64,000 nt of DNA, from assembly GCF_019704315.1 (NCBI RefSeq), contig NZ_AP024597.1, positions 1,922,001 through 1,986,000 of the forward strand. The letters run 5' to 3'. Both the position numbers and the translations under genes were made by a program. Below the pieces are notes generated by a model, which was not told the origin of the DNA, did not search any database, and saw nothing but the letters and a program-made list of their open reading frames with translations. Below, piece after piece: positions 22,009 through 47,188 of the stretch (position 1 is the first letter of the stretch; each line of letters begins with the position of its first letter). This stretch comes from Stygiolobus caldivivus (GTDB lineage Archaea; Thermoproteota; Thermoprotei_A; Sulfolobales; Sulfolobaceae).

Positions 22009-22033
22009 TTCTTTATCACTAATAATATGTTAT

Positions 22034-22121
22034 GGGCCCGTAGCTTAGCCCGGTAGAGCGCCCGGCTCATAACCAATTGTGAGGGACCGGGTGGTCCGGG
22101 GTTCAAGTCCCCGCGGGCCCA
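22034..22121 (+). tRNA. tRNA-Met(CAT), elongator type, with 14-bp intron
   Basis: Acceptor GGGCCCG/CGGGCCC + A73, anticodon stem CCCGG/CCGGG, T-arm CCGGGGTTCAAGTCCCCG-like. The loop of 21 bases becomes CTCATAA (anticodon CAT, 22068-22070) after removal of 22072-22085. Bulge-helix-bulge: 4-bp helix CTCA/TGAG with bulges TAA and GGA. The G1-C72 pair argues against initiator tRNA; a lysidine/agmatidine-type tRNA-Ile(CAT) is the less likely alternative. No encoded CCA. Confidence 0.92.
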
Positions 22122-22285
22122 TACTATTCAAATTTTTATAATGAAGCTTAGGCTACTCTTAAGACTAAACTTCTATTTTGTTGCTTGTTACTACTAGGAA
22201 ACACCTTATAGGTTGCGTAGTAATTATGGGAATAGTACAATTTATTTTAAATCAAGCTTAAGAAATTAGTTTTGATCGTTACTCA

Positions 22286-43981: not shown

Positions 43982-44015
43982 TGTTTAAATAACGTTTATT
44001 TATAATTCATGTGAA

Positions 44016-44021
44016 GGTGAT
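44016..44021 (+). promoter_or_regulatory. Shine-Dalgarno site of ileS
   Basis: GGTGAT at 44016-44021, five bases before the predicted non-canonical start TTA at 44027. The site is well formed and there is no other gene start within reach of it, so it identifies the ileS start region. Confidence 0.6.
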
Positions 44022-44026
44022 GTAAA

Positions 44027-47000
44027 TTATCTCAGCGTCAAATAAGACCCTTAACTTCAAAGTTTGACCCCTTAAAGAGCGAGGAAGAGATATTAAACTA
44101 TTGGAACACCAATAATATATATAAAAAACTTAAAGAGGAAAATAATAAGTTACCTAGAAAATTTCTATTTATTGATGGACCCCCATACCCATCTAGCCCA
44201 ATACCCCACATAGGTACCGTATGGAACAAGGTAATTAAGGACTGTATATTGAGGTATGAGAGGCTGGCGGGATATCGTACTTATGATCAGCCTGGCTACG
44301 ATACACACGGGTTACCTATCGAAGTCGCCACTGAAAAACAACTTGGGGTACAAAAGAAATCTGACATCATAGAAAAGATCGGTGTAGCTAATTTCGTAAA
44401 TAAGTGTAGGGAACTAGCTCTTACTAACGCTTCCGCATTGACACAGAACTTTAAGAATATGGGAGTATTCATGGACTGGGACAAACCTTACTATACGTTG
44501 GACAATACTTATATCTCAAATTCATGGGCAGTAGTTAAGAAAGCGTATGAAATGGGCTTATTATATAAGGGGGTTCATGTACTTCATTGGTGTCCTAGAT
44601 GCGAAACTACGCTGGCAGACTATGAAGTCTCAGAGTATAAAGACCTAGAAGACCCATCTATATACGTAAAGTTTAAGATAAAAGGTTCTTCCAATAAGTA
44701 TTTAGTAATCTGGACTACGACACCATGGACCATTCCTGCTAATGTTTTCGTAATGATAAACAAAGATTACGAATATGCTGAAGTACAAGTTAATAATGAG
44801 ATATTGATCATAGCTAAGGATAGAGTAAAAGATGTTATGAAAGATGCCGAGATATCCGATTATAAGATTATTAGAACTTTTAAAGGAGAGGAACTATTAG
44901 GTGTAGAGTACGATCACCCTCTGAGGGATCTTGTTCCAGCACAAGCTAAAGCTGATGGTTATCATAAAGTAGTTGATGCAGGGGAGAACGTAACACTGAC
45001 CGACGGTACCGGCTTAGTTCATTCAGCACCAGGGCATGGGGATATTGATTTTGAGATCGGTAAAAAATATGGAATGCCTGTCCTCATGTTCGTTAATGAC
45101 CAAGGTATATACACTGAAGACGCTGGGAAATATAAGGGTAAGGCAGTAAGGAGTGTAGCTGAAGAAATAATAAACGACTTAAAGTCTAAGAACGCCTTAT
45201 TACACGCTGGTAAGATAGTTCACAGATACCCGGTTTGTTGGAGGTGTAAAAGCCCGCTTATATTAAGAGCAATAGAGCAATGGTTTATAGGTGTGTCAAA
45301 ACTAAAGCAGGAGTTATTATCTGAAATAGACAATGTGAATTGGGTACCTGAGTGGGGAAAAACACGTATAGGGAATATGGTCAGAGAGATAAGGGATTGG
45401 GTTATAAGTAGACAAAGATTTTGGGGTACCCCATTACCTATATGGGTGTGTCAGAAATGTAACAATGTGATAGTTGTAGGGAGTAAAGAGGAACTAAAGA
45501 AAGTTGCTATTAGTGAAGTCCCAGAAGATCTTCACAGGCCGTGGATAGACGATGTAAAAGTTAAATGCAATAAGTGCGGTGGAGAAGCCGTAAGAGTACC
45601 TGATGTTGCAGATGTATGGTTTGATAGTGGTGTAGCATTCTTTGCAAGTCTAGGAGAAGACTGGGAGACTAAATGGAAAGAAATAGGCCCAGTAGATTTA
45701 GTGCTAGAAGGACATGACCAATTGAGAGGCTGGTTCTTCAGCCTTTTAAGAGCAGGAGTTATATTGTTAAACAAAGCACCATATAAGTCAGTCCTTGTGC
45801 ACGGTTTCATGCTAGATGAACAAGGTAGAGAAATGCATAAGAGCCTCGGTAATTATGTTGAACCCTCTCAGGTGGTCACAAAGCACGGAAGAGATGTCCT
45901 TAGGCTGTGGTTGCTCAGAAACACCACGTGGGAAGATGCTAAATTCTCTTGGAAATCCCTAGAACTAACTAAGAGAGATCTTAATATTATATGGAATGTT
46001 TATGTGTTCGCTTCTACTTACATGAATCTTGATAACTTTGATCCTACAATGTATTCTTTTGAGTCTATAAAACCGTATCTGAAACCAGAAGATAAGTGGC
46101 TATTATCAAGATATTATAGGATGCTCAAAGACGTATCTGAATCTATGAAGGACTATAAAGTCCATGAATTAGCTAATAAGGTAACCTCGTTTATAACAGA
46201 AGATATAAGTAGATTTTATTTAAGGTTAACGAGAAAGAGGGCATGGAATGAAGCAAATGACCCTGATAAAATAGCCATGTATTACGTGTTATATCAAGCC
46301 CTTAAGGGTTCGTTAATTTTACTGTCTACTATAACGCCATTTATAGCTGAGAGGATTTATCAGGACTTTGTAGTAGATAATTTAGACTCTGTAAGTATGG
46401 AGAGAATTCCAGAAATTAAAGAGGAATTCATAAATAAGGAAATTGAAGAAGCTTTCGACTTAGCAAAGGAAATAGCTGAAGCTGGACTGAACGCTAGGGC
46501 AAAAGCTGAAATTAAACTAAGATGGCCCATTAAAGAAGCATTCGTATTCTTAATATCTGAACAAGATCGCAGAATAATTGGTACTATTACTGATGTACTC
46601 AGATCTATGCTGAACTCTAAGGAAGTAAAGGTAGAGGGCATAGAAGGATATAAGAGGTTTAGTAAAATAAAGGCATCACCAAATAGAGGGTCTATTGGCC
46701 CTGACTTTAAGAGACTCTCTTCTAAAGTCGTCTCCTATATTGAAGAAAATAGTGAAGCCGTAGCAAACGACATAATAAATAAGGGAGTTCACGAAGCCGT
46801 AATTGAAGGCCAACCTATACAGCTCAAGGTAAATCATGTCAATATTGTAGAGGAGACTCAGCCTGGATATGTGTCAGCAAGGTTTAGTAAAGGTGTTATA
46901 GTAATTAACAAAGAAATCAGCAAAGAGGAAGAGGAAGAAGGTATTATAAGAGATATCGTAAGGAGGATCCAGTTTATGAGAAAAGAACTATCGCTTAACG

Positions 47001-47188
47001 TAAACGATTATATCGACTTAAGTATAAAGGCTCCTGAAGAAAGAGTGTCTACTATCCAGAAATGGTTAAATTATATAAAAGAAGAGACTAGAGCTAAACA
47101 AGTGGTCATAGGAGAAGTTAAGGGCAATTTAATCCAAGACTGGGAGATAGAGGACGAGACATACACCATAGGAGTAAGTAAGGCTTGA
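44027..47188 (+). CDS. ileS: Isoleucyl-tRNA synthetase (non-canonical start codon)
   Basis: About 1053 aa, class I synthetase. The frame is open from 44021: [15 protein letters not shown], then [17 protein letters not shown] (the HIGH-type motif PHIG, residues ~59-62), editing domain with [19 protein letters not shown] (KMSKS-type, ~602-608) and two zinc motifs (CWRC, CQKC ... CNKCGG). No ATG, GTG or TTG occurs before TTG 44249, which would delete the ATP-binding motif. TTA 44027 behind the GGTGAT site is the most likely start (compare TTG), or the base is a sequencing error. The downstream gene overlaps by 4. Confidence 0.9.

Follow-up and report, generated by a model that had tools for sequence, protein, structure and literature searches.

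The ileS locus

The window, i.e., the whole 64,000-nucleotide stretch analyzed here (positions 1,922,001–1,986,000 of a Sulfolobaceae genome assembled as one contig of 2.96 Mb and scored 99.99% complete), carries ileS, the gene for isoleucyl-tRNA synthetase (IleRS). Sulfolobaceae are heat- and acid-loving archaea. The parts of the locus are listed in window positions; "TTA-type" denotes those genomes of the family in which ileS carries TTA at the proposed start, and g1 to g11 are our labels for genera.

43984–43989, + strand: TTTAAA, predicted to be the promoter TATA box of ileS, its first T 32 nt upstream of GGTG
44016–44020, + strand: Shine–Dalgarno (SD) sequence GGTGA; GGTG occurs in 21/21 TTA-type genomes, and +6 is the most start-rich spacing
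44017–44025, + strand: out-of-frame mini-ORF GTG-ATG-TAA, overlapping the SD, its last base 1 nt before TTA
44018–44020, + strand: in-frame TGA that closes the ileS frame on the upstream side
44027–44029, + strand: UUA (TTA), the proposed ileS start codon, at GGTGA+6; invariant in 21/29 family genomes, with a g11 GTG at the same spacing
44027–47188, + strand: ileS, 1053 codons plus stop; Pfam tRNA-synt_1 (4.3e-122), Anticodon_1 and DUF5915, closest solved relatives IleRS
44204–44215, + strand: PHIG (HIGH-class) ATP-binding signature, upstream of the first standard start codon
44249–44251, + strand: TTG, the first in-frame standard start, from which the product would be a truncated enzyme without PHIG

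The ileS frame is open from 44021 to 47188, and its first in-frame ATG, GTG or TTG is TTG 44249, 74 codons past TTA. A sequence-only reading of this DNA had described the same frame, together with GGTGAT (44016–44021), TTA 44027, PHIG and TTG 44249; all of its coordinates check, as does its observation that no standard start codon lies in frame before the ATP-binding motif. It had also taken the gene for IleRS, and the Pfam domains and solved relatives agree: both the tRNA-synt_1 and the anticodon-binding domains of a class Ia IleRS are present, and the best structural relatives are IleRS. The HIGH-type signature belongs to the product only if translation starts upstream of TTG 44249, which bears out the further warning that annotation from a standard codon would truncate the protein. 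In a 464 kb sample of the genome, 343 genes have 150 codons or more, and of these ileS shows the longest gap between the opening of the frame and the first standard start (76 codons).

Conservation of TTA in the family

Of 31 family genomes, 29 yielded an ileS gene; the other two are 71% and 79% complete. The same TTA is present in 21 of these 29 genes, across seven of ten genera (g1, g3, g4, g5, g6, g8, and g9) and down to ~56% protein identity, always in the pattern GGTG-NNNNNN-A-TTA-TC[TC] with no length change: 7 nt separate GGTG from TTA, and the next codon is a Ser codon, TCY. The sequence-only reading had offered two explanations, a real UUA start or a base error, and had proposed looking for TTG in related genomes. 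TTA is indeed one base from TTG, but sequencing error is excluded because the same base stands in 20 other genomes (21 separate entries in 7 genera), and we give an error of sequencing or assembly practically no weight. Nor did the comparison reveal TTG there: TTA never becomes TTG in the 21 TTA-type genomes, and the other eight have GTG or ATG.

The standard starts of these eight genomes lie nearby (GTG in six g10 genomes and in g11, ATG in g7). In g10, assigned to Metallosphaera since the L022 sequence here is that of the named M. yellowstonensis locus L001, GTG lies in frame three codons (9 nt) upstream of the TTA position. The g11 GTG is at GGTGA+6, i.e., in TTA's place, and the g7 ATG is at or adjoining that place. 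All 12 order-level genomes read at this site have standard codons, ~45 to 50 codons before the ATP-site motif, where TTA lies 47 to 49 codons before it; one of them (L036) has ATG at GGTGA+6. On the IleRS tree, TTA occurs in the deepest family branch (g9), and at least four changes are needed to explain where it occurs; the simplest history would be a single early origin of TTA followed by losses in g10, g7, and g11. In two g9 genomes (L030 and L031), an ATG stands in frame 7 codons before the conserved TTA, which counts against a UUA start, although the TATA spacing suggests that this ATG falls outside the transcript. As a separate observation, an IleRS synthetase-like paralogue, split or with an internal TAA, occurs at G009:C1:1042014-1044256, G012:C1:1016512-1018179, and G019:C78:20911-22578.

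Conservation at this site acts on nucleotides. Across the 21 TTA-type genomes, 34 columns of ileS are invariant for Leu, and the start column alone is all-TTA (next best, 13/21); a single codon is used throughout at only 3 of 318 invariant degenerate residues. In the GC-richer g9, g5, and one g3 genome, TTA makes up only 11–21% of the Leu codons of ileS, yet the start TTA is kept. Codons downstream of it vary as ordinary coding sequence, the stretch between the TATA region and GGTG varies freely, and the upstream frame is shut by TGA in many genomes. The conserved SD, its spacing, TTA, the closed upstream frame, and the coding signature from TTA on are direct observations. An SD and a start codon alone do not account for a T at −4 (20/21) and an A at −1 that are nearly invariant, and the TC directly after TTA is (nearly) invariant as well.

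Two readings would place the signal elsewhere. First, the real start could be a standard codon downstream, as several genomes have TTG or ATG six to eight codons past TTA. No such codon is common to all, however; seven genomes, including this one, have none before the DGPPY motif, and the first one here would cost the PHIG signature, so that a downstream start is very improbable. Second, the GGUG...UUAUC block could be an RNA hairpin or protein-binding operator that masks the SD and start, given that its two invariant arms can pair and that −7 is always a purine opposite U. But the fold shows no clear gain over shuffled sequences and is essentially melted at 75°C, the predicted folds differ among genomes with no covariation, and a start codon would still be needed; we consider this reading improbable, if less so than a downstream start. 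As a genome-wide element, GGTGN6ATTATCY was not clearly enriched outside ileS relative to a reversed control.

Shine–Dalgarno spacing, leader and mini-ORF

SD spacing was scanned in 464 kb and then in 864 kb, or 29% of the genome. In-frame codons at GGTGA+6 were ATG, GTG or TTG in 55 and 58% of cases, respectively, compared with 26 and 32% at GGTGA+5 and ~7% at most other spacings. The ileS TTA thus occupies the most start-rich SD spacing of its genome: set against SD-led archaeal genes, ileS has the preferred spacing, and its codon, UUA, is not one of AUG, GUG, and UUG. The 7-base run AGGTGAT around the SD is complementary to the archaeal 16S rRNA 3′ end, and a duplex with the anti-SD is predicted in 21/21 TTA-type genomes; the 3′ end sequence used for this pairing is the general archaeal one, and a 16S search of the genome itself returned no match.

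Decoding counts against a UUA start: UUA mismatches the CAU anticodon at two positions, and the aIF1 factor of S. solfataricus is reported (cited in PMC6237735 and PMC8211752) to select against codons that are not canonical starts. A dedicated initiator tRNA with a UAA anticodon was considered and rejected: among the ARAGORN calls (3/45 tRNAs ambiguous), the only confident UAA tRNA is an ordinary tRNA-Leu (L114), and the initiator (L104) has CAU. A locus at window positions 22033–22122 (+ strand) reads as tRNA-Leu(TAA) if introns are disallowed; if they are allowed, its anticodon is CAU, its intron is 14 nt long, and it is probably tRNA-Ile2.

In this genome, TTTAWA boxes peak 29–30 nt before the starts of SD-less genes, and the ileS TATA box of TTA-type genomes lies at −27 to −32 from GGTG. 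From this spacing, we predict that the ileS mRNA begins at ~44013–44014, on GGTG or no more than a few nt from it, and that the leader is ~11–14 nt long (~13 nt before UUA here), an unusually 5′-terminal position for an SD and a further point against a start at UUA. At the same distance from its TATA box, Metallosphaera has the in-frame GTG, an apparently leaderless start that may have come into use by loss of one base between GTG and TTA. By extension, the GTG 10 nt upstream of TTA in TTA-type genomes could be a ribosome entry followed by a change of frame.

That GTG opens the mini-ORF. GTG-NNN-stop occurs in 18/21 TTA-type genomes, all three stop codons being represented and 1 nt being left between the stop and TTA; the stop is absent from both g5 genomes (L011 and L012) and from L019 (genome G006), which keep the SD and TTA. 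The pattern suggests either that termination and re-initiation feed UUA or that selection stops ribosomes entering at GUG. These out-of-frame features go beyond the sequence-only reading and leave two variants possible.

The main rival to a UUA start is a leaderless start at GUG 44017 with a +1 shift in the first codons (GUG-NNN-(U)-NAA-UUA), UUA then being an internal Leu codon. In its favor, GTG lies 10 nt upstream of TTA in 21/21 genomes with the predicted mRNA 5′ end at or near it; a stop follows one codon later in 18/21, as in RF2-type shifts; and in Metallosphaera, where the TATA spacing is the same, a GTG stands in frame at −9, and two of the species keep TTA TCT downstream. But the RF2 parallel fails where the three genomes without a stop are concerned, and the P-site codons (ATG, ATC, GTC, AGT, GGC, GAC, and GTT) share no re-pairing. 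Moreover, the extra G of GGTG, which only an SD needs, is invariant in TTA-type genomes, whereas C precedes GTG in Metallosphaera; TTA in 21/21 is not what an internal Leu codon would show; and the g11 GTG and the order-level ATG sit in TTA's place. We therefore judge a frameshift improbable, about on a par with the hairpin or marginally ahead of it.

Re-initiation is better placed. As a sub-case of initiation at UUA, a leaderless GUG would yield a two-codon peptide, and the ribosome, held by GGUG:anti-SD pairing, would re-initiate at UUA 1 nt past the stop. The recurrence of GTG-NNN-stop with differing stops, the T at −4, and the predicted 5′ end at GUG are consistent with this, as are the non-canonical starts of fen and nadM (see below), which likewise overlap an upstream cistron. 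Against it, the g5 genomes and G006 do without the stop, and the working of a two-codon ORF is only putative. We regard this route as unlikely, though clearly more plausible than a shift of frame.

Other non-canonical starts and comparison with known systems

When the 29% sample of this one genome was searched for SD-led frames that lack a standard start close by, five cases emerged, including ileS; SD-only hits without protein support (e.g., L151, L152, and L160) were not counted as starts. The other four are:

L068:13590-14108 (G000:C1:1913590), + strand: nadM (NMN adenylyltransferase), CTG at GGTGA+6 of an AGGTGAT run, within the tail of the upstream frame
L163:7491-8552 (G000:C1:1837491), + strand: fen (flap endonuclease 1), ATA after GGTGA+6
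L167:7179, + strand: quinol-oxidase-like gene, SD-led ATA, aligned with standard starts of relatives
L170:12407, + strand: Rieske gene, SD-led ATT, aligned with standard starts of relatives

The nadM start site varies in the family, with 18 CTG, 5 ATG, and 6 TTG at exactly the same place. The fen start, which here shares bases with the TAG that ends the upstream frame, is ATA in 25, ATC in three, and ATT in one of the 29/29 family genomes in which it was found, with no standard codon at the N-terminus. The closest solved FEN-1 structure (PDB 2izo, chain A) aligns only from residue 7 of the ATA-read protein; the construct probably lacks the native N-terminus, as expected if it was built from a truncated annotation. 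A second Rieske-like copy (G000:C1:2286117-2286941, − strand), with internal TGA and TAA and apparently decayed, adjoins the ATA-start oxidase gene.

Taken together, these data make us fairly confident that ileS starts at UUA 44027–44029, a genuine, selectively held, SD-anchored, and probably deliberately weak start. The first option of the sequence-only reading is backed by the SD spacing, the nucleotide invariance, the standard starts of relatives, and the other non-canonical SD-led starts; beyond that reading, the comparison supports a UUA start that is a family-wide, selectively held feature, and a phenomenon that extends past ileS. In the mechanism that we propose, GGUGA(U) on a short-leader mRNA (~13 nt, predicted) would pair with the 16S rRNA 3′ end and, through the preferred spacing, bring UUA into the P site. 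There the initiator, Met-tRNA(CAU), would be tolerated despite normal pairing at the middle base alone; IleRS would then begin with Met-Ser, and the mini-ORF overlapping the SD might feed UUA by termination and re-initiation. Selection would hold UUA across the family, most likely to limit IleRS synthesis or as an initiation-factor-sensitive start. We infer that the weak start itself is selected because TTA, one transition from TTG, is replaced by it in none of 21 genomes, whereas the nadM start moves between CTG, TTG, and ATG. The stringency of aIF1 would be a natural candidate control, given its reported discrimination against such starts.

Because several SD-led genes of the same genome start non-canonically, start-codon choice in the family looks looser than annotation assumes. 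A relaxed Sulfolobaceae rule, to which we lean with less assurance than to the ileS start itself, would be that, where SD pairing is good, important genes use UUA, AUA, AUC, AUU, or CUG as conserved starts, the ileS UUA being weak, factor-sensitive, and possibly used via re-initiation after a two-codon leaderless ORF. UUA on an essential synthetase and AUA/AUC/AUU on fen (29/29) would widen the archaeal start set. Both genes would offer natural test cases of how aIF1, aIF2, and SD pairing set start stringency in a near-eukaryotic translation system. They also illustrate that annotated N-termini can be wrong where gene-finders misplace gene beginnings (2izo is a probable example). The literature searched, which included few subscription papers, contained no report of UUA or another unusual start codon for Sulfolobus or for ileS.

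A review gives AUG, GUG, and UUG as the archaeal start codons. Compared with the standard SD-led starts of Sulfolobaceae (PMC7531240), ileS has the same SD motif and the preferred spacing, but its codon falls outside that set. Within the family, fen and nadM resemble ileS in being SD-led and non-canonical (ATA/ATC/ATT and CTG, respectively) at a homologous position; they differ in overlapping an upstream frame, whereas ileS is served by a promoter of its own, the mini-ORF being the only cistron upstream. RF2-type +1 programmed frameshifting shares the order of start, codon, stop, and main frame at +1 with an SD-like element nearby, but in ileS the stop is not universal, there is no slippery codon, and the SD spacing fits UUA directly. 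In bacteria, infC, the essential translation gene for IF3, starts at AUU, a weak and factor-sensitive start. Likewise, ileS is an essential translation gene with a conserved start other than AUG, GUG or UUG (21/29), if initiation at UUA is accepted. The two differ in that AUU is one position from AUG and UUA two, and in that ileS encodes an archaeal tRNA synthetase whose regulation is only presumed. We class ileS with infC as a case of conserved initiation at a non-standard codon, one that in ileS lies further from AUG.
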